DNA from: Methylophilus sp. QUAN
Lineage (GTDB): Bacteria; Pseudomonadota; Gammaproteobacteria; Burkholderiales; Methylophilaceae
Direction of reading: 5' to 3'
NCBI RefSeq assembly: GCF_015354445.1
Contig: NZ_JADKYT010000002.1
Coordinates: forward strand, 682,001-746,000
DNA length: 64,000 bases
The notes beneath the pieces were generated by a model, which worked only from the letters and a program-made list of their open reading frames with translations, was not told where the DNA came from and made no database searches. A program made the position numbers and the translations under genes. Positions 16,026 to 47,847 of the stretch are shown here, in pieces. Every line of letters starts with the position of its first letter. Position 1 is the stretch's first letter.

Positions 16026-16055
16026 GGCCGCAAGTTTATCACGCACACAATAGCG

Positions 16056-17342: not shown

Positions 17343-17344
17343 GG

Positions 17345-19377: not shown

Positions 19378-19380
19378 GGA

Positions 19381-20322: not shown

Positions 20323-20364
20323 CGTGATACCTCTCTCCAAAGTCTCATGCGTATTATTGTTGGT

Positions 20365-32994: not shown

Positions 32995-33021
32995 TTCACG
33001 AAGTAATATTTACTTCGTGAA
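32995..33021. repeat. Perfect 12-bp inverted repeat with 3-base loop
   Basis: TTCACGAAGTAA (32995-33006) and TTACTTCGTGAA (33010-33021) enclose TAT. A further GTTCGTGAAC palindrome lies at about 32957. The site is between convergent genes. It could act as a terminator, although the T-run is interrupted, or as a protein-binding site. Confidence 0.6.
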
Positions 33022-33086
33022 TTCTTTTAAAAGAATAGAGCTAGAGGCCATTTGTTCATGAGTTGCTTTACCCATTCATACATGCT

Positions 33087-34478
33087 TTACATAATCTGCA
33101 GGTGCATATGATGAGGGTACTCCAATGTATCGGCTATAATTTTCAAGCTGTGCTCACACTCTTCTCTTGTAGTGGGGCCACCTAAGCAAATTCTGACGGC
33201 ATCTGGTGGATTATTATCCGTGCAGAATGCGGAACTAGATACGACGCTAATACCATTAGATCTTAAATGAACAGCAAGTTCGGATGGGCTCCACCCTGTT
33301 GTATTGGGCACTGGAAGCCATATATGAAATCCTTCCGGGTGTGACATGAATTGCCACATATCTAATATGCGACTGGCCAAGCGGACACGAGTTGCCGACT
33401 CAGATCGAATAGCCTTCAGCATGTCATCAACAATGCCATTCTTGATCCAATTGGTAATTAATAGATTAGTGATGGGGCTAGACATTACAGATGTGGCTCT
33501 TAAAGAGCCTGCTAAACGTTGCGCCTGTCTTTGAGAAGGGGCTGCGACAAAGGCAGTTCTAAGTCCTGCACCAAAGCACTTGGAAAAGCCGCTGATATAC
33601 CAGGTCACCTCTGGGGCGATGCTTGCGATAGTGTCCAATCTGTCAGTTGGTAGCATGCCATACGCGTCATCCTCAATAATTGGAACGTTAAAGCGGATCG
33701 CAACATCAGCAAGAGCTTCCCTCCGATGTTTGGTCATCGTCAATGTGCTTGGGTTTTGAATGGTGGGATTGCAATAGAAGCCTTTGATTCTCTTGGTTTT
33801 ACAAGCTTCCTCAAAAGCAGAAACTACGGGCCCGTCTTTATCACTAGGAATGGATAACAGAGTGATGCCCAGTTGAGCTGCAATCGCCTTAATGCCCGGA
33901 TAGACCAGGTCCTCGACACAGATGGTTTCCCCTGGTCTAGCTAAGTTGGTCATTAATGCTAGTAGTACCGAGTGTATGCCAGGGCACACCAGAACTTGCT
34001 CTGCGCCGCAGGTGGGAACGTATTGTTTCAACCATGAGGCGGCCACCTGTCTTTCTTCTGGAGTGCCTCCAAAGTCTTGGTATCTCAACAGGTCGTATAG
34101 GTCGGCATTTGAAACTATTCTTGCAGCATCTTCCTTGATCTTTTGTGCCACGGACATGGGTTCTGGTGGCATGTTCATGGTCATTGCAATGCTGCTGCCA
34201 TCTCTTAGTTTAAATGCTGGAGGTTTACCTTTGATGAAGGTGCCTGAGCCGGCTTGAGAGTCTATGAGGCCACGGCGTTTAGCTTCACTGTAAGCTCTGG
34301 ATATCGTTGTGTAATTTAAATCTAGAAATTGAGACAGCTCTCTTAGGGTAGGTAATTGATCCCGAGGACGTAATCTTTCGTTGCTTATATCCTCTTCTAT
34401 CAAATCTGCCACAAGTAGATATGCAGGTTTGTTGCTATCTTTTAAGCGCTTTATCCAGTGTTGAATATTCGGGGCCAT
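33087..34478 (-). CDS. MocR-type GntR/aminotransferase transcriptional regulator
   Basis: A 463-residue regulator. The N-terminal winged helix has RPRDQLPTLRELSQFLDLNY near 37 and GLIDSQAGSGTFIKG near 70. The aminotransferase-fold domain has FCNPTIQNPSTLT-like YCNPTIQNPSTLT near 235, IEDDAYGMLP near 265 and the PLP lysine in ISGFSKCFGAGLRTAF near 295. MocR proteins sense PLP or amino compounds. It is divergent from the porin across a 306-bp region that holds a sigma-54 promoter, so it may also act there. Confidence 0.87.
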   Translation of the reverse strand: MAPNIQHWIKRLKDSNKPAYLLVADLIEEDISNERLRPRDQLPTLRELSQFLDLNYTTISRAYSEAKRRGLIDSQAGSGTFIKGKPPAFKLRDGSSIAMTMNMPPEPMSVAQKIKEDAARIVSNADLYDLLRYQDFGGTPEERQVAASWLKQYVPTCGAEQVLVCPGIHSVLLALMTNLARPGETICVEDLVYPGIKAIAAQLGITLLSIPSDKDGPVVSAFEEACKTKRIKGFYCNPTIQNPSTLTMTKHRREALADVAIRFNVPIIEDDAYGMLPTDRLDTIASIAPEVTWYISGFSKCFGAGLRTAFVAAPSQRQAQRLAGSLRATSVMSSPITNLLITNWIKNGIVDDMLKAIRSESATRVRLASRILDMWQFMSHPEGFHIWLPVPNTTGWSPSELAVHLRSNGISVVSSSAFCTDNNPPDAVRICLGGPTTREECEHSLKIIADTLEYPHHMHLQIM

Positions 34479-34520
34479 CTTTTATTTCCCTAGAAATCTA
34501 AAAAGCATGTATCGACTTTT

Positions 34521-34582
34521 ATACTGCACTGGCACCATTTTGTGGCGACCAAACTTTCAATATTGCACCTAATTGAACCATG
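34521..34582 (+). promoter_or_regulatory. NtrC-like enhancer region upstream of porin
   Basis: Two elements GCACCATTTTG (from 34532) and GCACCTAATTGA (from 34565) begin 33 bases apart, 124-171 bases upstream of the -24/-12 promoter. Both have counterparts in reverse orientation upstream of the Nit1C operon. NtrC consensus halves are GCACC/GGTGC. The dyads here are imperfect, so another sigma-54 activator remains possible. Confidence 0.5.
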
Positions 34583-34667
34583 AAATCACTTCTAGCCGAG
34601 GAGCAATATTTCTTTCAATAAATCGATAAAAAAACTTAAAGTCCTATTAGCAATAATATATCAATAT

Positions 34668-34719
34668 GATTGCATATTGATTGCTTTTTGTTAAAAAGTA
34701 AATGGCATGGCTGTTGCTG
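34668..34719 (+). promoter_or_regulatory. Sigma-54 promoter of the porin gene with upstream 17-bp box
   Basis: TGGCATGGCTGTTGCTG (34703-34719) has GG and GC separated by ten bases, as in -24/-12 promoters. The box GATTGCATATTGATTGC (34668-34684) lies exactly 18 bases upstream. The same box and spacing occur at the Nit1C promoter. The porin start is 66 bases downstream of the -12 element. Confidence 0.8.
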
Positions 34720-34784
34720 AACTGGGTTAGCGCATCTCCAGGTGCGTTTATCACTTAACTATTAACTCAGGGAATGTAGAGCCT

Positions 34785-36008
34785 ATGAAAAAGAATGCAG
34801 TTTCAAAAACTAAACTAAAGTTAGTCCTTGCCCAGGCGATGCTCGGGATGGTTGCCAGTAATGCTCATGCTGGTGCCACTATTAGCTTTGGTGAAGATAA
34901 ATTTCTCCATTTGGGCTTAGGCTTAAGAGCTGCTTACACTTCAGCTTCAGATGGTGCCGCAGATGGCAAATCTCGCTCCAATGATTTCGATGTATATAGT
35001 ACTCGTATCTACACCAGTGCCCAGTTGAATAGGGTTATTAAAGGCACACTGAACCTTGAAGGCACACATGGTGCTGAAAGCACAACCGGCGGCTCTAAAC
35101 TTGGTGAGAATTTTGAAATCTATGAGGCGATCGCGCAATTTGAGTTTGCACCCGAATTCAATCTTTGGGCTGGGCGCATGCTAACACCAAGCGATCGTTC
35201 CAACTTGGATGGACCATACTTTCTGTCCTCCTGGCTGTATCCAGGTGTTGTTGCTCAATATCCAAGCCAGCTGGCTGGCCGTGATACTGGTGTGACCGTG
35301 TGGGGTAAATTGATTGACCAGCATTTAATCTACTCAGTTGGATCCTTTGAGGGGCACAACAACTTCAAAGGCGCCTCCAGTGAAGATGATAATTTGCTCT
35401 ATGCAGGGCGTGTGCAATATGACTTTTGGGGTGAGGGCATGACCCCAGCTTACTACACTGCCAGTACCTTCTATGGGAAGGATTACTTATCTATCGGCTT
35501 TGCATCTCAATATCAAAAGAATGGTGTGGGCAGTGCAAATTTAAAAGGCGATTACCTGGCATATAACGCAGATTTGCTTTGGGAAAAGGATGTTGGTTTC
35601 GGCTTTCTCGATGTAGAGGCGGGCATATATAAATTCGATACTGATGGGAGATCAGATGTATCAAAATCACTATTAACCTCTACTCCAAGCTTGACTGCAA
35701 ACGTTGGTGGCATCAAGCAAGGCAAAGCCTATCTGTTTTCATCAGCCTTATTATTCCCTCAGCAGATTGGTTGGGGAAAGCTGCAACCTTACTTCAGATA
35801 TCAAAAGTTTGATGCTGACTCAACAAAGGGTGATGGCGGCGCTCTGTCGGTCGACGTGCTCTCCAGTGAAACCAAGCAATACGATTACGGCGTGCACTAC
35901 GTGATTGATGGTCACAATGCACGGTTAAGTGCCACTTACACTAAAAATGACTACTCAAACGCTAAAGACGAGAACAAGGTAACACTTGGCGTTCAGCTGC
36001 AGTTCTAA
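34785..36008 (+). CDS. Outer-membrane porin
   Basis: A 407-residue exported protein. The signal peptide ends SNAHAG near residue 28. The mature part is a long series of alternating beta-strand segments (FLHLGLGLRAAYTS, IYTSAQLNRVIKGTLNLEGT, FNLWAGRML) and ends in a C-terminal phenylalanine strand (KVTLGVQLQF), as in trimeric porins. It resembles phosphate-selective-porin-type proteins in general layout. The sigma-54 promoter links it to nitrogen control and to Nit1C next door. A nitrogen-regulated amide/urea porin (FmdC) is known in Methylophilus; whether this is the same family needs alignment. Substrate not readable. Confidence 0.83.
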   Translation: MKKNAVSKTKLKLVLAQAMLGMVASNAHAGATISFGEDKFLHLGLGLRAAYTSASDGAADGKSRSNDFDVYSTRIYTSAQLNRVIKGTLNLEGTHGAESTTGGSKLGENFEIYEAIAQFEFAPEFNLWAGRMLTPSDRSNLDGPYFLSSWLYPGVVAQYPSQLAGRDTGVTVWGKLIDQHLIYSVGSFEGHNNFKGASSEDDNLLYAGRVQYDFWGEGMTPAYYTASTFYGKDYLSIGFASQYQKNGVGSANLKGDYLAYNADLLWEKDVGFGFLDVEAGIYKFDTDGRSDVSKSLLTSTPSLTANVGGIKQGKAYLFSSALLFPQQIGWGKLQPYFRYQKFDADSTKGDGGALSVDVLSSETKQYDYGVHYVIDGHNARLSATYTKNDYSNAKDENKVTLGVQLQF

Positions 36009-36038
36009 TTTTAAAGATTCTCAAACCTCTCTCTTTGC

Positions 36039-36062
36039 CTGGCCTAACGTCGGGCTTTTTTT
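36039..36062 (+). terminator. Probable Rho-independent terminator after porin
   Basis: GCCTGG and TCGGGC form a short stem with two G-T pairs around CCTAACG. It is followed by a run of seven T. The stem is weak but well placed. Confidence 0.6.
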
Positions 36063-36081
36063 ATTCAGGCGATCCAAACAA

Positions 36082-36123
36082 GTGCATCCAAAATGGTGCG
36101 CATTGAATCAATTTGGTGCGCAT
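36082..36123 (+). promoter_or_regulatory. NtrC-like enhancer region upstream of Nit1C operon
   Basis: TGGTGCGCAT occurs twice, at 36094-36103 and 36114-36123, a 20-base period that puts both on one face of the DNA. The first continues a partial dyad with GTGCATCC. Read on the other strand these are GCACCATTTTG and GCACCAAATTGA, matching the porin elements. They lie 119-160 bases before the -24/-12 promoter. Confidence 0.55.
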
Positions 36124-36206
36124 GGGCTTCCAGTTGGCGGGCGGTAAATAACCAACCAAATTTCCTAAAAAAATTACTGCCGATCAATACCAATTTATTT
36201 CATATT

Positions 36207-36258
36207 GATTGCAAATTGATTGCATTATTTAAATTAATTGATGGCATACCGATTGCTA
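36207..36258 (+). promoter_or_regulatory. Sigma-54 promoter of the Nit1C operon with upstream 17-bp box
   Basis: TGGCATACCGATTGCTA (36242-36258) is a close match to the -24/-12 consensus, with GG-N10-GC. GATTGCAAATTGATTGC (36207-36223) ends 18 bases before it, the same spacing as at the porin. It consists of two TTGATTGC copies 11 bases apart. The first gene starts 61 bases after the -12 element. Confidence 0.85.
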
Positions 36259-36318
36259 TTGTCACTGTGAAGAGAAAATGAGTTCTTTTCATTTTGAAAA
36301 TCATTTATGGAGAAAAAA

Positions 36319-36801
36319 ATGCCTGCAATCACAGCACCCAAACATCAAGACGGAGACTTTTTCGTTGATTTTGAAGAGAAGGTATTTGAAGACGTAAAAG
36401 CGGAGCCAGGTCAGAAGGCTTTGGTGACTTTCCACACAGTAGCGTTCGAAGGCTCCATCGGCTTTGTAAACATGCTGCAAGCAACTCGCCTGCAACGCAA
36501 AGGCTTTGAGACATCCATTCTACTCTACGGCCCAGGTGTAACTCTCGGTGTTCAACGCGGCTTTCCAAAGTTGGGTGATGAGGCATTTCCTGGCCACTTG
36601 AACTTCAATCGTCAGCTGACAAAGTTCATGGCTGAAGGTGGGAAGGTCTATGCATGCCGTTTTGCATTGCAAGCGCTGTACGGTCATGGTGAGCCTGCAT
36701 TGATCGAAGGCATTCGCCCAATCAATCCTCTGGATGTTCTGGATTTGAAGCTGTTACACGTGCGTGACAACGCTGTGATTATCGACACCTGGACTGTGTA
36801 A
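36319..36801 (+). CDS. nitB: Nitrogen-starvation protein of the MSMEG_0572/Sll0783 family
   Basis: A 160-residue protein, first gene of the Nit1C operon. The start is ATG 36319, six bases after GGAG; the ATG at 36307 overlaps that binding site. Segments such as [18 protein letters not shown] and [16 protein letters not shown] match the family found at the head of nitrilase-1 clusters and first known from nitrogen-starved Synechocystis. The fold resembles DsrE-like proteins by my reading; no catalytic function is established. A 17-base repeat duplicates the stop-codon region just downstream. Confidence 0.88.
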
Positions 36802-36827
36802 TTAAATCTAGGACTGTGTAATTAAAT
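36791..36827 (+). repeat. Tandem 17-bp direct repeat spanning the nitB stop codon
   Basis: GGACTGTGTAATTAAAT occurs at 36791-36807 and 36811-36827. The first copy contains the last codons and stop of nitB, and the second repeats them in the spacer before nitC. This looks like a recent slippage duplication. Confidence 0.9.
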
Positions 36828-36844
36828 AAGGGATAGGTATCACG

Positions 36845-37855
36845 ATGTCAGAAAAGCGAATTATTAAGGCGGCAGCAGTTCAGATTACTCCTGATTTTGA
36901 ATCGGCTGATGGAACTGCGAAGAAGGTTTGTAGTGTCATTGATGAGGCAGGTGCCAAGGGGGTACAAATTATCGTCTTCCCTGAAACATTTCTCCCTTAT
37001 TACCCATACTTCTCCTTCATTACTCCGCCAGTGCTTGCCGGTGCTGAGCATTTGAAGCTTTATGAGAAGAGTGTCGTGATACCTGGCCCGATTACCCAGG
37101 CAATTTCAGAGCGTGCCAGGACCAATCAAATGGTTGTCGTGTTAGGCGTCAATGAGCGTGACAACGGCAGCTTATACAACACTCAATTAATCTTCGATGC
37201 TAGCGGTGAAGTGCTGCTCAAGCGAAGAAAAATTACACCCACTTATCATGAGCGAATGATATGGGGGCAGGGCGATGCGGCTGGGCTGAAAGTCGTTGAT
37301 ACCAAAGTTGGTCGTGTCGGCGCACTTGCCTGCTGGGAGCATTACAACCCATTAGCTAGATATTCACTGATGACACAGCATGAAGAAATTCATTGTGCTC
37401 AATTCCCAGGCTCCATGGTTGGTCAAATTTTCGCCGATCAAATGGAAGTCACTATTCGCCACCACGCACTTGAATCTGGTTGCTTCGTGATCAATTCGAC
37501 GGGCTGGCTGACAGATGATCAGATCAAATCAATTACGGATGACCCCAAAATGCAAAAAGCATTAAGAGGTGGCTGTAACACCGCAATTATTTCGCCAGAA
37601 GGGCAGCACTTAGCTGATCCATTAAGAGAAGGCGAGGGCATGGTGATTGCTGACTTGGATATGTCCTTAATCACTAAGCGAAAAAGAATGATGGACTCCG
37701 TCGGTCATTACTCACGACCGGAGCTGTTAAGCCTGGCGATTAATGACACGCCAACAAAAACAATATTTCCAATGAACGAGGGGCGACCACAAAACGAACA
37801 AATGCACATCGCAGAGGAGTTGAAAAATGAAGACAAGCTTGGCAGTTCAAACTAA
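36845..37855 (+). CDS. nitC: Nit1C-type nitrilase (Nit6803-like)
   Basis: A 336-residue carbon-nitrogen hydrolase. The catalytic triad is visible: Glu in [13 protein letters not shown] near 47, Lys in [15 protein letters not shown] near 130 and Cys in [11 protein letters not shown] near 162. Relatives hydrolyse nitriles to acids and ammonia. In Pseudomonas, the Nit1C cluster is linked to growth on cyanide as nitrogen source. The natural substrate of the cluster is not settled. It overlaps nitD by 29 bases. Confidence 0.92.
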
Positions 37856-38945
37856 ACAGCAACTCATTACTGAATTGCAGTCCATTGGTCTGCGATTAGA
37901 ACAACCAAACATTGGTGCCTCTAGCAGGCGAGGTGGCGCGGGTCCTTCTGATCATAAGGCGGTCACGATTGATGGTGTCACTGTCATGGTGCCGGTGCAT
38001 ACGAATACAGCATGGAATTCATCATTCAAGGCTGATATTCCGGATCAAGCAGGTGTAAGTAAGCTGTTGAAGGGGATTATACCCATCGCTGAGATTAGCT
38101 TTCCAAAGGCACCTAAGTTCTACGATCTGAAAACAGAGGACGGCATTCCTTACTCACATATTGCGACATTGCATAGCGCTGATGTGTTAGCGACAACTGT
38201 GCTTCAAACATGTGTGAGATACGAAAGTAAAAAGCAGTCATGCAAATTTTGTTCGATTGGCCAGTCGTTATCTGCTGGAAGAACGATTCCTTATAAAACG
38301 CCAAGTCAATTAGCGGAGGTTGCAAGTGCAGCCGTTCGCCTTGACGGTGTAAAACACATGATTTTAACAACAGGCACACCTGCAACGGATGACCGTGGGG
38401 CCAAAATTCTGTGTGAAAGTGTCGCAGCCATTAAAGCTGCAGTAGATCTGCCTGTTCAAGTTCAATGCGAACCACCAGAGGATCTTAATTGGTTTAATCG
38501 CATGAAAGATGTAGGCGTTGATTCAATTGGCCTGCATTTGGAGGCAGTGACCCAAGAAGTTAGAGAGAAAGTCATGCCCGGGAAAGCTCAAGTAAGCCTG
38601 GATAAGTATTTTGAAGCCTTCGAAGCCGCTGTTGCAGTATTTGGTCGAGGCCAGGTGAATACATACATCCTTGCCGGCCTGGGTGATAGCAAAGAGGCTA
38701 TTTTGAGCATGTCAGAACAGTTGATCGACATCGGAGTTTATCCTTTCGTTGTGCCTTTTGTACCCATCACAGGAACCCCTCTCGAAGACCATCCGGCCCC
38801 AACGCCAGACTTTATGCGCTCGATTCTGGAACCTTTGGGTGGCATGCTCAAACGGGCAAAAATGACCTCTGAGGACATCAAAGCGGGTTGTGGTAAATGT
38901 GGCGCCTGTTCATCTCTGTCTACATATGAGGTGGAACATGCTTGA
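37827..38945 (+). CDS. nitD: Radical SAM protein of the MSMEG_0568 family
   Basis: A 372-residue radical SAM enzyme. The cluster-binding segment is [20 protein letters not shown] near 130, with cysteines spaced C-X9-C-X2-C, unlike the canonical C-X3-C-X2-C. A C-terminal [10 protein letters not shown] near 355 could ligate another cluster. GGDxP-like and [17 protein letters not shown] segments follow the BioB/HydG-like barrel pattern. The ATG has GAGGAG seven bases upstream inside nitC, so the 29-base overlap is real. Its reaction is unknown. Confidence 0.88.
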
Positions 38946-39519
38946 TTCTTCTCTACAAGGCGACCATTCAAGTTTTGATTACCCAATTTATGCGGAATTT
39001 CCCAAATATCAGCCGGTTGAGTATCTGATCAAATGGGCAACCTCGGCATGGGAGATTGAGCAAGCAATGCAAATTCGTAAAGATGTTTTTTGCGAAGAGC
39101 AGGGCATCTTTGATGGCAATGATAAAGATGCGATTGATGAAAAAGCGCAAATTATCGTCGCCCTGTCATGTGAAGCTGGTCACCCAGATGCTGTAGTAGG
39201 CACGGTGCGTATCCATGAGGATGAGCCTGGCGTTTGGTACGGATCACGCCTTGCAGTTCATCAAAAGTTCAGGTCTCAAGGAAAGCTTGGCGCTTCGCTT
39301 ATCAAGCTGGCTGTGAGTAGCGCGAACTGGGTCGGTTGCACGACCTTTTTAGCGCATGTTCAAAGTCAAAACGTACCCTTGTTCAGACGCTTGCATTGGG
39401 ACATCTTACAGCAGGAGACGCTGCTCAACCGCTCGCATCACTTGATGCAAGCCCGGTTGGATAAGTATCCCGCCTTTAAAAAGCCAACTGAAGGCTTCGT
39501 GATTCAGGCCAGGAGTTGA
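38938..39519 (+). CDS. nitE: GNAT acetyltransferase of the MSMEG_0567/Sll0786 family
   Basis: A 193-residue GNAT protein starting at ATG 38938, eight bases before the end of nitD. IRKDVFCEEQGIFDGND near 49 and the acetyl-CoA region SRLAVHQKFRSQGKLGASL near 107 are visible. ARSLGC-like C-terminal strands complete the fold. The family is restricted to Nit1C clusters and responds to nitrogen limitation. The acceptor could be the product of the radical SAM or AIR-synthase-like step, which is inference. Its stop overlaps the nitF ribosome binding region. Confidence 0.85.
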   Translation: MLDSSLQGDHSSFDYPIYAEFPKYQPVEYLIKWATSAWEIEQAMQIRKDVFCEEQGIFDGNDKDAIDEKAQIIVALSCEAGHPDAVVGTVRIHEDEPGVWYGSRLAVHQKFRSQGKLGASLIKLAVSSANWVGCTTFLAHVQSQNVPLFRRLHWDILQQETLLNRSHHLMQARLDKYPAFKKPTEGFVIQARS

Positions 39520-39521
39520 TC

Positions 39522-40496
39522 ATGGCTCTCAATGAAATTGTGAAGTCACTGAAGGCAAGCAGGTTCTTCCAACATAAACACGATATTTCAGATGTGCTTG
39601 GTTATTTAAACAAGGTTGTACCTGTTAACTCAGCCCAGGACATTCTGATTGGCGACGATTGTGCCGCGATTCCTGATGGTGATGAATATCTCCTGTTTGC
39701 TATCGAAGGCCTCGTTGGCGAGTTTGTCCGGGAAATGCCAGAGTTTGCCGGTTACAGCGGAGTCATGGTGAATATCAGTGACATCTATGCCATGGGCGGG
39801 CGGCCATTAGCGGTGGTGAATGCTCTCTGGAGCGAGGGAGCCATCAATGCTAAAGCCATTGTCGAGGGTATGGCAAAAGCCTCAAAAGCTTATGGTGTTC
39901 CTATTGTCGGTGGGCACTCTAACGTCAGGTCTAATCAAGGCCAGTTAGCAGTATCCATTTTGGGCAAGGCCAAGAAATTATTATCAAGCTTTAATGCGCG
40001 CCCTGGCGACAAGCTTCTGATGGCTATCGATATGCGAGGCAAGTTTGAAAGCGCATATCCGTATTGGAATGCATCAACAAAGGCCTCTTCAGAAAGACTG
40101 AGGGGCGATCTCGAAATACTTCCAACGCTGGCGGAAGAGGGACTATGTGATGCCGCTAAAGATATCAGCATGGCTGGTGTCATAGGTACATCCATCATGC
40201 TGCTGGAGTGCTCAAAGGCTGGAGCCCATATAAACCTGGATGCATTACCAATTCCTGCAGACGTTCCTATGCTGCGTTGGTTATCTGCGTTCCCAAGCTT
40301 TGGTTTCATTTTGTCGGTCAGACCAGAGAACAGTGACGCCGTCATCAAGAAGTTCAAAGACAGATTCATTGCCTGCCAGGAAATTGGAAGTATCAACAAT
40401 ACGAAATTAGTCACTCTTGGCTATCAAGGCAATACAGAAACCCTCTGGGATTTGAATACTAATAATTTTATTTTGCCCTCTGTCAGTGCGGACTGA
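39522..40496 (+). CDS. nitF: AIR-synthase-like protein (Sll0787 family)
   Basis: A 324-residue ATP-dependent enzyme of the PurM/ThiL/HypE/SelD superfamily. IGDDCAAIPDGDEYLLFAIE near 43 is the nucleotide-binding start, GVMVNISDIYAMGGRPLAVV near 84 the dimer core, and PIVGGHSNVRSNQG near 128 the phosphate-binding region. I use ATG 39522, six bases after AGGAG; the earlier TTG overlaps it. Homologues activate an amide or carboxylate with ATP. This may be an energy-using step on the nitrilase-derived compound, but the substrate is unknown. Confidence 0.88.
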   Translation: MALNEIVKSLKASRFFQHKHDISDVLGYLNKVVPVNSAQDILIGDDCAAIPDGDEYLLFAIEGLVGEFVREMPEFAGYSGVMVNISDIYAMGGRPLAVVNALWSEGAINAKAIVEGMAKASKAYGVPIVGGHSNVRSNQGQLAVSILGKAKKLLSSFNARPGDKLLMAIDMRGKFESAYPYWNASTKASSERLRGDLEILPTLAEEGLCDAAKDISMAGVIGTSIMLLECSKAGAHINLDALPIPADVPMLRWLSAFPSFGFILSVRPENSDAVIKKFKDRFIACQEIGSINNTKLVTLGYQGNTETLWDLNTNNFILPSVSAD

Positions 40497-40526
40497 CTGA
40501 GGCTTAAAGCTCGAAAAGGAGAACCT

Positions 40527-40823
40527 ATGCCTAGCGTTTATTTTAATGTTGTCTGGCCAGATGAAAGCCGGTCCCAATGCTACTCACCTTCAACAGTGAT
40601 CAAACAGTTCTTAGTTGAGGGCGAGTCTTATGAAGTTGACGTCTTCATGGAAAAAGTGAGAGAGGGACTGGCACAAGCGTCTGAAAAAGTCAGGGCTAAA
40701 TATGGATACAGCTGCTCAGCTGCGGCAGATCAATTAAAAACCATTGAGGACTTGGTTGCGAAAGGCAACTTCCCTAAAGGATCAAAAATTCTCATCAGAA
40801 GAATTACTGAGAACGACCTTTAA
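40527..40823 (+). CDS. nitG: MSMEG_0570-family nitrogen starvation small protein
   Basis: A 98-residue protein with VYFNVVWPDESRSQCYSPST at the start and GYSCSAAADQLKTIE near 70, matching the small protein between AIR synthase and flavin oxidoreductase genes in Nit1C clusters. Function not established. AAAAGGAG precedes the ATG. Two cysteines (positions near 20 and 69) could be redox-active. Its constant place suggests it is a partner of NitF or NitH. Confidence 0.82.
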   Translation: MPSVYFNVVWPDESRSQCYSPSTVIKQFLVEGESYEVDVFMEKVREGLAQASEKVRAKYGYSCSAAADQLKTIEDLVAKGNFPKGSKILIRRITENDL

Positions 40824-40855
40824 ACCAAGCCATTAATCATTACTGAGGAAAGAAC

Positions 40856-42142
40856 ATGAACAACACAATTCAATCGAATTTAACCTTCAACAAAAGCCAT
40901 TTCTCTGTGATCGTGGTCGGCGGCGGCCAAGCTGGATTATCACTCAGCTACTATTTGCAGCAGACAAACACTGATCACCTGGTCATTGAAAAGCATACGG
41001 CAACTCATGCATGGCGCACACAACGCTGGGACACATTCTGTCTTGTGACACCTAACTGGCAATGTAACTTACCAGGCTACTCCTATAGTGGCGCCGATCC
41101 TCACGGCTTCATGGTTAAAGAGGAAATCATTGCCTTCCTGGATGGCTTCATTAAGCATGTGAACCCACCAATCAAAGAGGGCGTTGAGGTTAAACAAGTG
41201 AAATCTCTTCCTCAAGGCGGTTTTGCTGTGACAACGTCTGATGGTGAGTACACGGCTGACCAAGTAGTTGTGGCATCAGGTGGCTACCATGTGCCGATTA
41301 TTCCAAGAATGGCGGAAAGAATTCCGGCAACCGTTAAACAAATTCACTCGGAGCAATATCGCAACCCGAGCATGCTACCTGAGGGGGCTGTTCTGGTTGT
41401 TGGCTCCGGTCAATCAGGTGCTCAAATCGCAGAGGACCTACATTTGGCCGGCCGTAAAGTGTTCCTGGCCGTTGGGGATGCTCCAAGATGCGCTCGCTTC
41501 TACAGGGGTAAAGATGTAGTGGATTGGTTGGCAGATATGAACTACTACGACTTACCAGTTGACCAGCATCCATTACGCGAAGGTGTGCGTGATAACACCA
41601 ACCATTATGTAACTGGTCGCGATGGCGGTAGAGATATCGACTTGCGTAGATTTGCCAGCGAAGGCATGCAGTTATTTGGATTCCTGAATGACTTCAAAGA
41701 TGGTGTATTTGAATTTAGCGGCAATTTGAGCGAGTTGTTAGATCAGGCCGATGCCGTCTATAACCGTATTAATCAGACAATTGATAAATACATTGCAGAA
41801 AATAATATTGATGCGCCAGCTTCCTCTAGCTATGCACCTGTATGGAAGCCTGAAAAGGAAAACTTAGAGTTAGACCTGGCTAACTCTGGTATTACAAGCA
41901 TTGTCTGGTGCATTGGCTTCAGACCAGATTTTAGCTGGATCGATGCGCCTATATTTACTGGCCGTGGCTATCCATCCCATACACGTGGGATCACTCCACA
42001 AGCGGGGCTTTACTTCCTTGGATTGCCATGGCTCTACACTTGGGGGTCAGGCAGATTCTCAGGCATTGATCGTGATGCCAAATATATTTCCGAAGCGATT
42101 AGTTCAGCCAAATCAAAGATCGAAGCTAAGGAAGCTGCTTAA
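40856..42142 (+). CDS. nitH: MSMEG_0569-family flavin-dependent oxidoreductase
   Basis: A 428-residue flavoprotein monooxygenase. FAD motif VIVVGGGQAGLSLSYYLQ starts near 19, THAWRTQRWDTFCLVTPNW near 48 is typical of N-hydroxylating or Baeyer-Villiger-type monooxygenases, and the NAD(P) motif VVGSGQSGAQIAEDL is near 180. C-terminal GRGYPSHTRGITPQAGLYFL closes the fold. It completes the seven-gene Nit1C set. Oxygenation of a nitrogen or carbon atom of the pathway product is the likely role. The LnmK-like gene follows after five bases. Confidence 0.9.
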   Translation: MNNTIQSNLTFNKSHFSVIVVGGGQAGLSLSYYLQQTNTDHLVIEKHTATHAWRTQRWDTFCLVTPNWQCNLPGYSYSGADPHGFMVKEEIIAFLDGFIKHVNPPIKEGVEVKQVKSLPQGGFAVTTSDGEYTADQVVVASGGYHVPIIPRMAERIPATVKQIHSEQYRNPSMLPEGAVLVVGSGQSGAQIAEDLHLAGRKVFLAVGDAPRCARFYRGKDVVDWLADMNYYDLPVDQHPLREGVRDNTNHYVTGRDGGRDIDLRRFASEGMQLFGFLNDFKDGVFEFSGNLSELLDQADAVYNRINQTIDKYIAENNIDAPASSSYAPVWKPEKENLELDLANSGITSIVWCIGFRPDFSWIDAPIFTGRGYPSHTRGITPQAGLYFLGLPWLYTWGSGRFSGIDRDAKYISEAISSAKSKIEAKEAA

Positions 42143-42147
42143 GGAGT

Positions 42148-42984
42148 ATGAGTTTGCAAGAAGAAGTCTACATCGCTGGCATGCCTCAATTGTCTTATGA
42201 GGGGCTATCAGAGAACTGGTTGCTCAAAGAGTGTGGTCATCGCCATTGGTTGGGGTTGGCTGAGCTCAATAACCAAGAGTTACCTGAGTTCTTTGATCTA
42301 TCTGGGAACAAAGCATATGCGGCGTTTACTGCGGTAAAGATTAAGTCTAAATCACTGGAGGGTATCGATGAGAATCAGTCCTTTTCGATACGCTCAGAGG
42401 TTGCCAGGGTTGGGCCAGCTAGATACCTGGGAGAGCATACTGTCACGTCCAGAAGCTTTCAATGTGCTCAGGTAACGATGCTCTCCACTTTCGTGTTCCG
42501 CCGTGAATTCAAGAACAATCAATCTGTCACAAGAGCGAGCTTTAAGGCAGAGCCTACGGAGTTTAATGGGGATCGTGAACAGCTGGATGAGTGGGTCGCC
42601 TTTGCAAAGATGGCTAGAAGCGGTAATTGGGTCGAGCATATGGGCATTAAGCGGTACTACACCGGAAAGAAACATGCCCTGACCTATACTCCTTGCCCAC
42701 ACTCAGATTTTAATGGAGCCAATTTCCTGTACTTCGCAAGCTTCCAAAACTATATCGATAAGGCTGAGTGGGAGTGGTTTAGAGGTGATGAGTTATGGGC
42801 CTTGGATTCTCGTGAGCTTTACTACTACGGCAACATCAATGTTGGTGACTCATTGACCATTACTTTAGGCTCAGTGGAGTTGTCGACGGATACACTACTG
42901 CATTGGTGTGAGGTCGTAAATAACCAGAACGTCAAAATTGCGGATGTCTTTACGATCAAGAGAAGGGCAAAACATGCAACCTAG
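42148..42984 (+). CDS. LnmK-like protein (Pnap_2097-type hot-dog enzyme)
   Basis: A 278-residue protein with tandem hot-dog-like halves: IAGMPQLSYEGLSENWLLKE near 9, FSIRSEVARVGPARYLGEHT near 79, YFASFQNYIDKAEWEW near 190 and NINVGDSLTITLGS near 230. This layout fits the LnmK group. LnmK from leinamycin synthesis is an acyltransferase/decarboxylase that turns methylmalonyl-CoA into propionyl-ACP. A methylmalonyl-CoA mutase overlaps its 3' end by 11 bases, which supports use of a methylmalonyl unit. No acyl carrier protein is in the window. GGAG precedes the ATG. The tight spacing suggests the gene belongs to the Nit1C transcript. Confidence 0.72.
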   Translation: MSLQEEVYIAGMPQLSYEGLSENWLLKECGHRHWLGLAELNNQELPEFFDLSGNKAYAAFTAVKIKSKSLEGIDENQSFSIRSEVARVGPARYLGEHTVTSRSFQCAQVTMLSTFVFRREFKNNQSVTRASFKAEPTEFNGDREQLDEWVAFAKMARSGNWVEHMGIKRYYTGKKHALTYTPCPHSDFNGANFLYFASFQNYIDKAEWEWFRGDELWALDSRELYYYGNINVGDSLTITLGSVELSTDTLLHWCEVVNNQNVKIADVFTIKRRAKHAT

Positions 42985-45064
42985 CCTTATTCAAACCCCT
43001 GAGTCTGGGTTAAATATTGAAACCGGATTTAAGTATAAGCCCTTATATACAGCTGAGGACTTGCAGTGGATTACCCATCTGAATAGTAAACCAGGTGAGT
43101 TACCTTTTTTACGTGGTCCATACCCGACCATGTATACACAAAGGCCGTGGACAATAAGGCAGTATGCGGGATTTGGTGATGCCAAGACAACAAACCAGCT
43201 CTACCGTAATGCCGTAGGCAATGGGGCCAAAGGCCTTTCCGTTGCATTTGACCTGCCTACTCATAGAGGGTGGGACTCCGACAGCCCTCATGCAGCTGGA
43301 GACGTTGGCAAAGCAGGTGTTGCCATTGATAGCGTTGAAGATATGAAGGAGCTCCTTGCTGGGATACCACTGAATGACATCTCAGTTTCAATGACCATGA
43401 ACGGTGCTGTATTGCCAATCATGGCGGCCTATATTGTTGCAGCAGATGAGCTTGGTTTTAATGTGGCGGACCTCAGCGGGACGATCCAAAACGATATTCT
43501 GAAAGAATTTATGGTAAGAAATACTTATATTTTCTCGCCAGAGATGTCACTCAGAATCGCTGCGGATATCGTTGAGTACAACGCCCAGAATATCCCCAGG
43601 TTCAACTCCATGTCTATTTCTGGATATCACTTTCAGGAAGCGGGTGCTGACCCTGTGCTTGAGCTTGCGTTAACCCTATCTAATGCAAAAACCTATATTG
43701 AGTATGCAATCAAGCAAGGCTGGGACATCAATAAATTCTGTGAGCATCTCACATTTTTCTTCTGCGTAGGTTCTGACTTTTACCTGGAAATTGCAAAACT
43801 GAGAGCGGCCAGATTGATATGGACCGAATTGCTTGAAAGCTATGGCGTAACCAGCAAAAAAGCAAAGGCACTCAGAATGCACTGCCAAACCTCGGGTTGG
43901 TCTTTGGTTGCAGGAGATCCATTGAATAATATTGCCCGTACGACAGCACAGGCCATGGCAGCGGCGTTTGGCGGTACTCAGTCTCTACATACCAACTCCT
44001 ACGATGAAGCCTACTCATTGCCTACCGAACAATCATCAAAGGTGGCAAGGGACACTCAGCGAATTTTGCAGGAAGAAACTGGCATCTGCAATGTCATTGA
44101 CCCATGGGCCGGATCCTACATGATGGAAAAAATTACGGCAGAAGTCATTGATGAAGTCAAAGCTGTTTTCAATCACATTGACTCTGCGGGCGGAATGTTA
44201 AAGGCCCTTGATGACAGCTTGATTCAGAAATTAATTCAGACACGTGCTGCAAAAACTCAGGCTAACCTTGACTCTGGAAAACAGAAAGTTGTTGGTGCGG
44301 ATAATATTACGCACAAGACTGAGAGTCTTAATTTTGACTCAGATGTGATTCGTTTACAGCAAACAACTAAAATAAAGGCAATGAAGCTTTGTCGTGACGA
44401 TATGAAAGTTCGACGCGCCCTTAAAAATCTCAGCAGAGTAGCTCAAAAAAGGCAGGGTAATTTGTTAAGTGCGACTATAGAGGCAATCAAATACCGAGCT
44501 ACTATTCAAGAATGCACTGACGCTCTCACAAAAGCTTTTCCAAGGCATCAACAATTTCCTGTTTTGATTGAAGGCATCTATAAGGGTGAAATCGACGATC
44601 ATCCTGAATGGATGACTGCTAAACAGGCAGTGAGCGATATTGCCGACCTTCTTAGTAGATCGCCTAGGGTGCTTGTAGCGAAAGTTGGTCAAGACGGGCA
44701 TGATAGAGGAGCAAATGTCGTAACCTCTATTTTGTGTGATTCGGGTTGTGAGGTTAAACAACTTCCATTATTTATTCACATCGAAAACATCGTTTCTTAT
44801 GCAAGTAATTTTGAGGCAGATATGATTGCCATTTCTTCTTTGGCGAATGCTCATAATGAACTAATCCCCCAATTAATGTACGAGCTAAGGTGTAAGAATA
44901 TTGATATACCAGTAGTTTTAGGTGGCATTGTGCCTGTTGAGGATCATGAAGCCTTAAAAAGATACGGAGTGGCTTTTGTGATGGAACCCGGAGTGACGAT
45001 TCAAAAAGCAATCCCTTCATTGATGAGTATTATTAAAAAAAGAAGTTTGAATAATTGGCCATGA
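42974..45064 (+). CDS. Methylmalonyl-CoA mutase (B12-dependent)
   Basis: A 696-residue mutase from ATG 42974, overlapping the LnmK-like gene by 11 bases; the earlier in-frame ATGs lie deeper inside that gene. The catalytic barrel has LRGPYPTMYTQRPWTIRQY near 38, VAFDLPTHRGWDSDSP near 90, SVSMTMNGAVLPI near 136 and SISGYHFQEAGADP near 215. The C-terminal cobalamin domain has KVGQDGHDRG near 573. Single-chain length and the RQY tyrosine favour methylmalonyl-CoA over isobutyryl-CoA mutase. It would interconvert succinyl-CoA and methylmalonyl-CoA, feeding the LnmK-like protein. The last third is more AT-rich than the first. Confidence 0.87.
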   Translation: MQPSLIQTPESGLNIETGFKYKPLYTAEDLQWITHLNSKPGELPFLRGPYPTMYTQRPWTIRQYAGFGDAKTTNQLYRNAVGNGAKGLSVAFDLPTHRGWDSDSPHAAGDVGKAGVAIDSVEDMKELLAGIPLNDISVSMTMNGAVLPIMAAYIVAADELGFNVADLSGTIQNDILKEFMVRNTYIFSPEMSLRIAADIVEYNAQNIPRFNSMSISGYHFQEAGADPVLELALTLSNAKTYIEYAIKQGWDINKFCEHLTFFFCVGSDFYLEIAKLRAARLIWTELLESYGVTSKKAKALRMHCQTSGWSLVAGDPLNNIARTTAQAMAAAFGGTQSLHTNSYDEAYSLPTEQSSKVARDTQRILQEETGICNVIDPWAGSYMMEKITAEVIDEVKAVFNHIDSAGGMLKALDDSLIQKLIQTRAAKTQANLDSGKQKVVGADNITHKTESLNFDSDVIRLQQTTKIKAMKLCRDDMKVRRALKNLSRVAQKRQGNLLSATIEAIKYRATIQECTDALTKAFPRHQQFPVLIEGIYKGEIDDHPEWMTAKQAVSDIADLLSRSPRVLVAKVGQDGHDRGANVVTSILCDSGCEVKQLPLFIHIENIVSYASNFEADMIAISSLANAHNELIPQLMYELRCKNIDIPVVLGGIVPVEDHEALKRYGVAFVMEPGVTIQKAIPSLMSIIKKRSLNNWP

Positions 45065-45136
45065 TTGTCAATTAGTAAGCCTAGACAGGTTCGAGGGTAT
45101 TAAAGTCTAGTGATGCATCGATTTCTAATTAACTTG

Positions 45137-45670
45137 TTAACTTTCAGCATCATAAAGTCTTGTTGAAATGTTGGCATACTCTTGAGCGGAGACTTGTCCA
45201 TCATTGTTTCCGTTTTTGTCCATTAAATTTAAAATGGACTGGGATAGCGGGCTGTTATTTTGTGCGGCTTGAGAGAGCGATTTTAGAATTTCACCGTGTG
45301 AGATAGTGTTGTCAGAGTTTGTGTCAAACGCTGAGATAATGTCTTGTTGATCTGTTTCTTTAACGCCAAGGCTGCTTAATAAAGCTGCAAAATCATCCTT
45401 TGAAATCTTTTTGTCTGTGACAATTGAATTGGAAAACTGTGCGGAGCTACCTGCAGCATTTGTTTTAGTTAATGGGGTATCGAATTCCTTCATCGATACC
45501 GCAATTCCTTTGTTTGTAAAATTGGCCAGGGCCTTGGCATCCTCACTAAGCGTTACTTTGGAGGATTCAGTGGCTTGAGGTGGTGGCGTATTAGCTTTAT
45601 CTGAATCTTGCTTGCTCGCTAGTTTTTCAAAGACTCTGATGTTGTTACTAATACCATTGATTAATGACAT
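45137..45670 (-). CDS. EF-hand protein
   Basis: A 177-residue protein, start ATG 45670 with GGAGAG upstream. Two EF-hand loops are clear: DTNSDNTISHGE near 118 and DKNGNNDGQVSA near 150. The N-terminal half is Ser/Lys/Thr-rich, with VTLSEDAKALANF near 40, a pattern seen in small bacterial calcium-binding proteins of unknown role. It has no signal peptide. It faces the mutase gene and is divergent from the TetR regulator. Confidence 0.75.
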   Translation of the reverse strand: MSLINGISNNIRVFEKLASKQDSDKANTPPPQATESSKVTLSEDAKALANFTNKGIAVSMKEFDTPLTKTNAAGSSAQFSNSIVTDKKISKDDFAALLSSLGVKETDQQDIISAFDTNSDNTISHGEILKSLSQAAQNNSPLSQSILNLMDKNGNNDGQVSAQEYANISTRLYDAES

Positions 45671-45787
45671 TGCTATTCTCTCCATGTGGAATTTCAGAAA
45701 CAATCCTAACTAATTAGAAGCTCAAGCTTTTTCCAGAGTAAAAGCCATCTTTATGCTTATTTCTACTCGAAAATTAAAAAAAACTAA

Positions 45788-45839
45788 TTGACATTTGGAT
45801 TTGGTGGTTCAATAATATAAAAAACCAACCGGTCATCTA
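45788..45839 (+). promoter_or_regulatory. Promoter of the TetR gene with overlapping operator
   Basis: TTGACA (45788-45793) and AATAAT (45811-45816) are 17 bases apart. The operator at 45820-45839, read on the minus strand, is TAGATGACCGGTTGG followed by T. It matches 46435-46454 at 15 of 20 positions. Its place over the transcription start suggests autorepression. Confidence 0.65.
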
Positions 45840-45848
45840 TTTTAAGTT

Positions 45849-46415
45849 ATGCCACGCCCAGTCAATTTTGTTGTTAGAGAAAAGATTTTATCCGTAGGGC
45901 AAGAATTCGTTCAAGCTAATGGATTCAATGCATGTTCAGTCCAAGATATTGCGCAAGCAGCGAATATCCCTAAAGGGTCTTTTTACAGCTATTTTGAAAG
46001 CAAGGAGGCTTTTGCTGTTGAGATATTGCAGGCTTACTGGGTAGGAATTTTAGAGTCAGATCATTCGGTAAACGGTAGGGCCACAACCCTTATTGAGCAT
46101 TTTGACTTATTGGCTAATTACCATGAGGAGAATCTGTTTGTTAAGGGGTGTTTATTAGGTAATCTCGCTTTGGAGTTAGGTGGAAACAACGCTGTTGTTA
46201 GAGATACTTTGTTAGAAATTTTCATTCAATGGAAAAAGCTACTTTTAACAAAGATCCAGGCTGAGTTTCCAAATAAAGCTGAAAATGAGCTAAATCAACT
46301 GGCCGACGTTTGCATATCAGGATTTGAGGGGGCGGTTATGCAAGCTAAGTTGCTAAAAAGTAATACCCCATTTTTAAGTTTTAAAAATATTTTTTTGAAA
46401 CAAATTTTGAAGTAA
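45849..46415 (+). CDS. TetR/AcrR-family repressor
   Basis: A 188-residue regulator. The N-terminal helix-turn-helix has FNACSVQDIAQAANIPKGSF near 24 and YSYFESKEAFAVEIL near 43, typical of the NemR/AcuR side of the family. The C-terminal ligand domain includes KGCLLGNLALELGG near 93; this has one cysteine in a position where electrophile-sensing relatives also have one, which is suggestive only. Matching operators lie upstream of this gene and of the hydrolase gene. It therefore probably controls itself and the next two genes. Confidence 0.87.
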   Translation: MPRPVNFVVREKILSVGQEFVQANGFNACSVQDIAQAANIPKGSFYSYFESKEAFAVEILQAYWVGILESDHSVNGRATTLIEHFDLLANYHEENLFVKGCLLGNLALELGGNNAVVRDTLLEIFIQWKKLLLTKIQAEFPNKAENELNQLADVCISGFEGAVMQAKLLKSNTPFLSFKNIFLKQILK

Positions 46416-46434
46416 ATTTTTTTAAGCATTTAAA

Positions 46435-46454
46435 TAGTTGACCAGTCGTCTTTT
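46435..46454 (+). promoter_or_regulatory. TetR operator upstream of cysteine-hydrolase gene
   Basis: The sequence begins TAGTTGACCAGTCGTC and contains the near-palindrome GACCAGTCGTC. It is the second copy of the operator over the TetR promoter. It ends 13 bases before the hydrolase start at 46468, where it would block transcription or ribosome access. Confidence 0.6.
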
Positions 46455-46467
46455 AAAGGAGATTAAG

Positions 46468-47184
46468 ATGAAAGAAAGTAAGAGTATTTATGCCGATCCG
46501 ACAAATCCAGTATTGCCAAAAAGCCAATTCGAACTTGATATTAATCGTGTTGCATTAGTCGTCGTCGATCCACAAAACGATTTTCTTACTCCGCAGGGGG
46601 TAAGTTGGCCTTTCGTCGGCGAATGCGTAACAGAGAACAATACAGTTTCAAATATCGAGTCACTGTTCAAGGCAGCAAAAAGATCTGAAATAACGGTAGC
46701 AGTGTCCCCTCATTTTTACTATCCGGTAGATCATCAGTGGGATTTTGGAGGGCCATTGGAGCATGTAATGCATGACATTGGCATGTTCGAAAGAAAGAGC
46801 CCATTAAGTTTGGAAGGTTTTGAGGGGTCGGGCGCAGATTTCCTGGAAATATATAAGCCTTACATTCTTGATGGAAAAACAATCATTGCTTCTCCACATA
46901 AGGTCTATGGGCCTGAAAGCAATGATCTTGCACTTCAGTTAAGAAAGAAAGGTGTAACACAAGTTTTGCTAGCGGGTATGGCGGCAAATTTGTGTATTGA
47001 ATCACATTTGCGTGAGTTGGTAGAGCAAGGTTTTGAGGTTGCTGTCGTTAGAGATGCCACTGCTGCGCCAAGAGTGCCAGAAGGAGACGGATATTTGGCC
47101 GCGTTAATTAATTTTAGATTTATTGCACATGCGCTTTGGACTACTGACGAAACCGTCAATCAGTTAGCTAGTAAAACTAAATAG
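46468..47184 (+). CDS. Isochorismatase-like cysteine hydrolase
   Basis: A 238-residue enzyme starting at ATG 46468 after AAAGGAG. The catalytic triad of the family is visible: Asp in VVVDPQNDFLTPQG near 27, a Lys in ASPHKVYGP near 143 and the nucleophile in AGMAANLCIESHLRE near 172. Members hydrolyse amides, ureides or related C-N bonds. Here it is coupled to a DUF779 gene and controlled by a TetR-type regulator. Substrate unknown; a nitrogen-release step would match the nearby Nit1C genes but is not shown. Confidence 0.85.
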   Translation: MKESKSIYADPTNPVLPKSQFELDINRVALVVVDPQNDFLTPQGVSWPFVGECVTENNTVSNIESLFKAAKRSEITVAVSPHFYYPVDHQWDFGGPLEHVMHDIGMFERKSPLSLEGFEGSGADFLEIYKPYILDGKTIIASPHKVYGPESNDLALQLRKKGVTQVLLAGMAANLCIESHLRELVEQGFEVAVVRDATAAPRVPEGDGYLAALINFRFIAHALWTTDETVNQLASKTK

Positions 47185-47203
47185 CTTATTAAGGGAGATG
47201 AGC

Positions 47204-47578
47204 ATGGTGGAACGTGTCGTAGCATCTGAGGAAAGTAAGAAGGCAGTTGAGCTTTTAAAGGAGCAATATGGTGACTTAATTTTCTTTCAGTCATCAGGTT
47301 GTTGCGAGGGTAGTACTCCAATGTGTTACCCCAAAAACGAATATGCGATTGGCCCCAACGATATCCAGATTGGCTTTGTTGGAAGCGTTCCATATTTCAT
47401 GTCCAAATCTCAGTATGAGTATATGAAACACACTCAGCTGATCCTTGAACTAGAGGTTGGGAATAACAATACTTTCTCATTGAATGCACCTGATGGACGC
47501 AGCTTTGTTACTAAGTCTAGATTATTTACTGACGAGGAGTGGAGCGCTTTGGTAGTAGCTTTGCCTGAGTTAGCTTAA
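47204..47578 (+). CDS. DUF779 family protein
   Basis: A 124-residue protein from ATG 47204, six bases after GGGAG. The family signature is FFQSSGCCEGSTPMCYP near 28, with three cysteines in nine residues, followed by GPNDIQIGFVGSVPYFM near 50. DUF779 proteins are commonly found beside aldehyde dehydrogenase genes; a metal- or thiol-based role is often supposed but not proven. It is 19 bases after the cysteine hydrolase in one operon. Confidence 0.85.
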   Translation: MVERVVASEESKKAVELLKEQYGDLIFFQSSGCCEGSTPMCYPKNEYAIGPNDIQIGFVGSVPYFMSKSQYEYMKHTQLILELEVGNNNTFSLNAPDGRSFVTKSRLFTDEEWSALVVALPELA

Positions 47579-47592
47579 GTCAGGATGGAGGC

Positions 47593-47611
47593 GGGGAAAA
47601 TTATTTTCCCC
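47593..47611. repeat. Perfect 8-bp palindrome after the DUF779 gene
   Basis: GGGGAAAA and TTTTCCCC are separated by TTA, 14 bases after the stop codon. The stem is strong, but no T-tract follows. It may slow or end transcription, or bind a protein. Confidence 0.6.
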
Positions 47612-47637
47612 AGCTTTCAACATGAGTATTCATTGGC

Positions 47638-47847
47638 ATGCTGATGATCGGCGGGAAGAGCGTGAGACATTTAAAGCTAATTAAGATTGCTATTCCAACG
47701 GGTTTTGCCAGTTCAATTACTAGTGCACAATTCTTACTTTCCCATTTTGGTATTGAAAAGGTAACCTTGGGTACTTGGCTAAGTGGTTGGTTATTTTCAT
47801 GGGTTATTTCAATCTTAGTCTCCTTGGCATTTTCTCAATTAATGTAG
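47638..47847 (+). CDS. Small two-helix membrane protein (DUF2798-like)
   Basis: Up to 69 residues with two hydrophobic helices: IAIPTGFASSITSAQFLL near 17 and LGTWLSGWLFSWVISIL near 43. Pattern and size resemble DUF2798 proteins, whose role is unknown. The ATG at 47638 has no clear ribosome binding site; the GTG at 47662, with GGGAAGAG nearby, is a credible alternative. The same frame continues after its TAG into the transposase fragment, so it may be chance or a remnant. Confidence 0.45.
   Translation: MLMIGGKSVRHLKLIKIAIPTGFASSITSAQFLLSHFGIEKVTLGTWLSGWLFSWVISILVSLAFSQLM

Follow-up and report, generated by a model that had tools for sequence, protein, structure and literature searches.

The Nit1C cluster is a set of seven genes, a nitrilase gene among them, that occurs from cyanobacteria to proteobacteria, and Podar 2005 (PMC1199592) found no experimental evidence placing any Nit1C gene in a known metabolic step. 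In Pseudomonas, the nitrilase NitC has been tied to growth on cyanide (PMC11049912). Here, we describe a Nit1C cluster in a 64,000-nucleotide stretch of the Methylophilus sp. QUAN genome (3.15 Mb, 6 contigs), a stretch that we call the window. The window has all seven in the order typical of proteobacteria, which ends with the flavoprotein gene, but its run continues with two genes that the seven-gene definition excludes: K, whose product resembles the leinamycin enzyme LnmK, and M, which encodes a predicted methylmalonyl-coenzyme A (CoA) mutase. The letters nitB to nitH are those used for Pseudomonas in PMC11049912, and K and M are labels of the present analysis. Neither “mutase” nor “methylmalonyl” occurs in the main text of PMC1199592 or PMC11049912.

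A nine-gene nitrilase operon from a Red Sea brine pool (2016, PMC4751646) ends with a hypothetical protein and a mutase, and the passage on this operon gives annotation only and no role. Because a Cupriavidus plasmid (L186) carries Nit1C-K-M and the paper’s nitrilase is closest to a Cupriavidus one, we infer that the hypothetical protein would be K. In the cyanotroph Pseudomonas fluorescens NCIMB 11764, nitA is placed three genes downstream of nitH by the relevant passage of PMC11049912. The P. fluorescens PS833 locus has K, M, and at least one further gene between nitH and a NitA-like gene (90.5% identical to the regulator at Pseudomonas locus L029), so NCIMB 11764 may carry K-M as well. The passages of PMC7029842 that were searched hold nothing on a mutase. 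The window locus is a known cluster joined to a module of known enzyme families, and no description of a role for this combination was found in the literature searched.

In Escherichia coli, Sbm converts succinyl-CoA to methylmalonyl-CoA, and ScpB, a decarboxylase of the crotonase fold, turns this into a propionyl thioester. M and K would share this two-step logic, although the K model is a double hot-dog and not a crotonase fold. We read the window locus as Nit1C plus a two-enzyme module that would make a propionyl group from succinyl-CoA for use in a Nit1C-dependent compound, and we give this reading a probability of about 0.6.

Results

All nine genes lie on the plus strand in one run, with the seven Nit1C genes (36319–42142) leading straight into K and M (Table 1). 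Each of the nine proteins exceeds the curated cut-off of its own NCBIfam model, and the seven matches that identify Nit1C are contiguous, on the plus strand, and in the conserved gene order. With the start codons chosen here, the intergenic distances are 43 bases (nitB-nitC), −29 (nitC-nitD), −8 (nitD-nitE), 2 (nitE-nitF), 30 (nitF-nitG), 32 (nitG-nitH), 5 (nitH-K), and −11 (K-M). An initial annotation of this DNA had described seven Nit1C genes followed by an LnmK-like gene and a B12 mutase; this layout was borne out, and its 5-base gap and 11-base overlap are exact. We dismiss a chance origin of the run because two further genomes of the family share nitH-K-M and the linkage is also widespread beyond them.

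Table 1. Features of the window, with the model match that identifies each
Feature	Position	Strand	Match or basis
nitB, MSMEG_0572/Sll0783 family	36319–36801	+	TIGR04044, 284.7 bits
nitC, Nit6803 family nitrilase	36845–37855	+	TIGR04048, 584.8 bits
nitD, radical SAM protein	37827–38945	+	TIGR04043, 595.2 bits
nitE, GNAT acyltransferase with weak FeeM similarity	38938–39519	+	TIGR04045, 236.6 bits; Pfam FeeM, 29.2 vs cut-off 27
nitF, AIR synthase-like	39522–40496	+	TIGR04049, 464.9 bits
nitG, MSMEG_0570 family	40527–40823	+	TIGR04042, 109.1 bits
nitH, flavin-dependent oxidoreductase	40856–42142	+	TIGR04046, 691.6 bits
K, LnmK-family (Pnap_2097) acyltransferase/decarboxylase-like	42148–42984	+	TIGR04099, 288.8 vs 125; TIGR04098 (LnmK), 247.4 vs 100
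M, single-chain methylmalonyl-CoA mutase with B12 domain	42974–45064	+	NF006944, 913 vs 876; PF01642, 643 bits; PF02310, 74 bits
MocR-type regulator	33087–34478	−, divergent from cluster	Pfam GntR and Aminotran_1_2
Porin-like protein (by eye), upstream of nitB	34785–36008	+	no Pfam match
EF-hand protein, immediately 3′ of M	45137–45703	−	
Isochorismatase-like hydrolase	46438–47184		
DUF779 protein	47198–47578		

Of 61 genomes (the window genome and 60 relatives), three had K above cut-off: besides the window genome, these are a member of its genus and another of its family, and all three have the order nitH-K-M. A phylum draw of 397 genomes yielded K above cut-off in 6, the Nit1C nitrilase above cut-off in 19, and both in 5. 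The sixth K (G277) is another kind of protein, in which a hexapeptide acyltransferase, a carrier, and LnmK are fused in that order, and its genome has no match to the Nit1C radical SAM protein. The 14 Nit1C genomes of this draw without K hold complete clusters and nothing K-like in the 16–17 kb compared for each (tblastn, E ≤ 1e-5). A further locus compared alongside them (G428), with its nitrilase below cut-off, has the nitrilase only.

For a wider survey, we used the 80 best-scoring K loci of 195 relatives in named genomes, a sample in which remoter K contexts are under-represented. All seven Nit1C genes are present in 71 of the 80, and M is present in 39, always directly after K and on the same strand (39/39). 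The adjacency is thus not unique to this strain, a point on which the initial annotation had depended. Of the nine loci without the full set, two are cut by a contig end (L033, L082), two have K at a contig edge (L054, L072), two hold nitC-F and K only (L087, L089), one comes from a genome that gave no match to the Nit1C radical SAM protein (L060), and two have K-M beside a second nitH, with full Nit1C elsewhere in the genome (L022, L025). The last two belong to Burkholderiaceae genomes in which the full cluster stands at one site (L153/L154) and nitH-K-M, with its own nitH, at another; the L025 unit also has nitB and nitE matches. M-bearing hosts are Methylophilus, Methylotenera, Methylobacillus, Paraburkholderia, Caballeronia, Burkholderia, Pseudomonas, Marinomonas, Oceanobacter, and Sessilibacter, and K occurs without M in Azospirillum, Ancylobacter, Methyloversatilis, Rhodoferax, Azorhizobium, and others. 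A nitH tree intermixes K-bearing and K-less clusters, with no K-associated nitH subtype.

In a plasmid collection, K was matched in 60 records, and the context was read for nine. Nit1C-K-M is carried by plasmids of Paraburkholderia sp. FT54 (M annotated as scpA) and Cupriavidus oxalaticus, and Nit1C-K without M by those of Agrobacterium, Rhizobium, and Alloyangia. On a Methylocystis plasmid, K accompanies nitC-F, nitB lies some 7 kb farther along, and M is absent. Plasmids of Azospirillum argentinense, Roseobacter, and Thalassospira carry K but no Nit1C.

The distribution of mutases among hosts fits a need of K for methylmalonyl-CoA. We searched 56 K genomes (49 chosen for diversity from the 80 loci, plus 7 others) with PF01642, and none of the 29 with both K and M had another canonical mutase. 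Extra matches were seen in 8 of these genomes as IcmF-like fusions, so classed from score and frame length with one sequence inspected; G464 has a hydroxyisobutyryl-type enzyme, and G471 a fragment of 35% identity at a contig end. A canonical mutase is encoded elsewhere in 26 of the 27 K-only genomes (756–811 bits). No mutase of any kind was found at E ≤ 1e-20 in the 34 K-less genomes of the window’s family, five of which are <90% complete. Counting G487 and G470 as without one, 54 of the 56 K genomes have a canonical mutase vs 8 of 14 K-less Nit1C genomes (Fisher P = 0.0005, with shared ancestry ignored).

The usual companions of a housekeeping mutase follow a similar division. An epimerase was above cut-off in 0/29 K+M genomes vs 18/27 K-only genomes, with one sub-cut-off match (G472, 43.9 bits). 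MeaB, scored on the best 40 candidates per genome, was above cut-off in 0/29 K+M genomes vs 9 of the 10 K-only genomes scored (10 of 27). Sub-cut-off MeaB matches in 8 K+M genomes fall within frames of IcmF length, in G464 also near the second mutase. Cobalamin adenosyltransferase, from at least one of two families, is present in all 29 K+M genomes. The missing epimerase and MeaB lower the case for a housekeeping mutase, not the case for a mutase. Carboxylases give methylmalonyl-CoA in its (2S) form, which M could not use in hosts with no epimerase above cut-off, and the mutase reaction yields the (2R) form directly. Judging from these gene contents, M would most likely make (2R)-methylmalonyl-CoA from succinyl-CoA for K.

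K was modeled with AlphaFold2 (AF2) from an alignment in which sequences from 51 of the 80 loci joined the window K (52 in all), giving a double hot-dog fold with a predicted local distance difference test score (pLDDT) of 94.7. The top seven Foldseek matches are all LnmK (E 4e-15 to 8e-14; template-modeling score 0.76–0.79 on the query). K is like LnmK of leinamycin biosynthesis (PDB 4hzn, 6x7l) in predicted fold, catalytic tyrosine, and family model, with TIGR04098 matching all 52 aligned members at E ≤ 0.001, but it is only 14–15% identical, and the sole carrier found in the window genome is AcpP. Tyr57 of K, in a YAAF motif, corresponds in a profile alignment to the TYLAF motif at chain index 62 of the LnmK structure 6x7l. 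We take this position to be the catalytic Tyr62 of Lohman 2013, whose number agrees with the chain index.

Tyr57 is conserved wherever the alignment has a residue at this position (80/80, from the window and 79 loci; L043, with its early stop, is not counted), as are Asn189, Gly190, and Asn229. The tyrosine is also kept in a further set of 12 sequences, four of them from outside Nit1C. The active-site comparison that the initial annotation had left open as a way to fail therefore found the catalytic tyrosine in place. Decarboxylation by LnmK uses a loop asparagine, according to the mechanistic passages of PMC8666670. The NG of this loop is kept in K, with Asn189 as the candidate counterpart of that asparagine. 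LnmK is specific for (2R)-methylmalonyl-CoA by the title of Lohman & Shen 2020, as cited in PMC8666670. The match between the direct (2R) product of M and the (2R) substrate of LnmK is, we think, the strongest mechanistic point, and K very probably uses (2R)-methylmalonyl-CoA.

M shares its domains and substrate-pocket residues with single-chain methylmalonyl-CoA mutases (human MUT, MutB), but belongs to a separate clade, and its hosts have neither epimerase nor MeaB above cut-off. A tree of 54 sequences places the 37 cluster mutases in a single clade (support 0.955), and 13 housekeeping mutases fall separately from it (0.988). The gene trees left out K of L043 (early stop) and the broken or cut M of L039, L052, and L071. 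Tyr89, Gln197, Arg207, Tyr243, His244, and the His of the DxHxxG motif, in what we take to be MutB numbering, are kept in 37/37 M. The residues kept include those that separate methylmalonyl-CoA mutase from isobutyryl and hydroxyisobutyryl types, such as Arg207, present in all 37 M vs Gln in three of four outgroup mutases.

What receives the acyl group is constrained by the host. The only phosphopantetheine protein of the window genome is AcpP, encoded between fabG and fabF, and a Methylobacillus genome (G023) also has one; the other five genomes of that search have 2 to 20. With one such protein each, K in the window genome and G023 can hardly load a dedicated carrier, and its acceptor in the window genome should be AcpP or a molecule other than an acyl carrier protein (ACP). 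The statement that K works like LnmK holds only up to the acceptor. In the initial annotation, K was to receive methylmalonyl-CoA formed from succinyl-CoA and to make propionyl-ACP; which mutase, epimerase, and MeaB genes the hosts have or lack supports the first part well, and the second, as a product on a dedicated carrier, was not supported, with only AcpP found.

Relatives of K outside Nit1C have a carrier nearby or fused in three of the four contexts read. The Azospirillum relative lies in a polyketide cluster with a carrier, and for the Thalassospira relative, part of a fatty acyl-AMP ligase cluster, the carrier is about 7 kb away. In G277 (L017:3613–5022), the LnmK-like domain stands behind a hexapeptide acyltransferase domain with a carrier domain between them. 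The relative on a Roseobacter litoralis plasmid (L180:7323–8780) is a hexapeptide-LnmK-like fusion among glycosyltransferase genes, with no carrier found in the frame. Such fusions are possibly acyl-decorating enzymes of sugars. NitG, considered as a hidden carrier for its invariant CS motif, was rejected: its AF2 model (pLDDT 88.7) has a make-up of strands and helices unlike ACP, and there was no PDB match at E ≤ 0.001.

Upstream of the cluster, the divergent MocR-type protein is probably its regulator; it was matched in 70 of 87 compared loci, a count in which some contigs appear twice and paralogs are possible. Homologs of the porin-like protein were found in 4/87 loci (L059 and L018, from the same Methylobacillus contig, L021, and L063), and of the EF-hand protein in 0/87. 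In Pseudomonas loci L029, L035, L037, L040, L042, and L043, K-M is divergent from nitB-H, and at L029 a sigma-54/PAS regulator (NitA-like) lies 5′ of K in the same orientation, an arrangement that would suit a single nitA-K-M operon. The isochorismatase-like hydrolase and DUF779 genes lie downstream of the cluster behind a TetR gene, and in Methylotenera L021 a 74%-identical hydrolase gene comes directly after M, encoded on the other strand. Promoter-like matches in 35900–46000 numbered 15 vs a shuffle mean of 16.7, and terminator-like matches 13 vs 9.3 (standard deviation 3.6). No tRNA was found in the window, and Rfam gave no match at gathering scores in 33000–48500. Farther away, on the minus strand at 12277–20340, are genes for a TPR/GT41 glycosyltransferase, an MnmC-like protein, a cyclopropane fatty acid synthase-like methyltransferase, and a fatty acid desaturase, these named genes alone having been scanned in the run.

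Discussion

Gene linkage, family membership, predicted fold, conserved catalytic residues, and the host pattern are direct observations, and from them we infer the activities, the direction of M, the propionyl product, and its use in a Nit1C-dependent compound. In the proposed mechanism, M would isomerize succinyl-CoA to (2R)-methylmalonyl-CoA with adenosylcobalamin. K, as an LnmK-type double hot-dog enzyme, would decarboxylate this intermediate and move the propionyl group via Tyr57 to an acceptor. By its likeness to LnmK, K probably yields a propionyl group, and linkage makes entry of this group into the Nit1C metabolite plausible, so that service to the Nit1C pathway is the favored, though slightly less secure, part of the argument.

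Several observations weigh against this reading. K is an accessory to Nit1C, with 14 of the 19 Nit1C genomes of the phylum draw lacking it, and the genome that carries K at L060 (G483) gave no match to the Nit1C radical SAM protein. Two genomes depart from the supply pattern: G487, a metagenome-assembled genome with K only, has a mutase of another type only, and G470 has a truncated M only. The absence of MeaB rests on the 40 best candidates per genome. Identity of K to LnmK is low, K has GHxHW vs GDWTW in LnmK, and no dedicated carrier protein was found in the window genome. M also changes state only once on the K tree, so genome counts of the K/M pattern overstate independence; the pattern amounts to a single gain (or loss) of M and later residence in several lineages that lack a mutase, rather than to dozens of separate events. 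In Pseudomonas, M is broken at L039 (stop after 579 codons) with K open, and K has an in-frame stop at codon 28 at L043 with M open. At L071, also in Pseudomonas, M is a 212-codon remnant and K is open.

One alternative is that K-M is a stand-alone shunt from succinyl-CoA to propionyl-CoA and CO2, for odd-chain lipids or the methylcitrate route, merely co-regulated with Nit1C. Mutase plus decarboxylase is the Sbm-ScpB logic, K-M stands apart from full Nit1C at L022 and L025, and K is an orphan at L060. However, full Nit1C accompanies K at 71 of the 80 loci, and both split units still carry a copy of nitH, which leaves this explanation unlikely.

We consider equally unlikely the proposal that K makes propionyl-AcpP, with which NitE would N-acylate a Nit1C intermediate, using another acyl group where K is missing. 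FeeM, which uses acyl-ACP, gave a weak Pfam match in both NitE members scanned, the carrier search in the window genome yielded AcpP alone, and most K relatives read outside Nit1C go with carriers. Yet the FeeM score is little above cut-off, general GNAT domains match NitE too, and NitE is equally present in K-less clusters.

Less probable still, K could be a methylmalonyl-CoA thioesterase or another hot-dog enzyme and neither acyltransferase nor decarboxylase. Its low identity to LnmK would allow this, and the fold matches that follow LnmK are acyl-ACP and acyl-CoA thioesterases; against it stand the seven leading LnmK matches, the conserved tyrosine and loop NG, and TIGR04098, whose cut-off the window K exceeds and which all 52 aligned members match. 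Finally, methylmalonyl-CoA mutases are reversible and commonly run toward succinyl-CoA, but that M burns propionyl-CoA beside Nit1C by accident of placement is very improbable, given that this route needs a (2S) to (2R) epimerase, that neither epimerase nor the usual companion MeaB is above cut-off in any of the 29 K+M genomes, that M follows K in 39/39 M-bearing loci, and that the 34 K-less family members gave no mutase match at E ≤ 1e-20.

Conclusions

Beyond the reading of K-M as a propionyl-forming module for Nit1C, we tentatively suggest, at less than even odds, that Nit1C is biosynthetic and does not only release nitrogen. Its product may then have a propionyl-bearing variant, in which K and M would deliver a C3 unit from succinyl-CoA to AcpP or a Nit1C intermediate, the mutase having been recruited for hosts without methylmalonyl-CoA of their own. 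If so, K would be the first small-molecule or AcpP-dependent LnmK.

The product of the Nit1C radical SAM, AIR synthase-like, and flavin enzymes was not found described in the literature searched. K-M points to a specific building block, either (2R)-methylmalonyl-CoA or propionyl, as a first testable lead on that product: the block could be supplied in labeled form, and both enzymes could be assayed, in the search for it. For the host, the locus places an LnmK-type enzyme in a genome where AcpP is the one carrier found, and it gives a B12 mutase the likely role of supply gene in bacteria otherwise without a canonical mutase.

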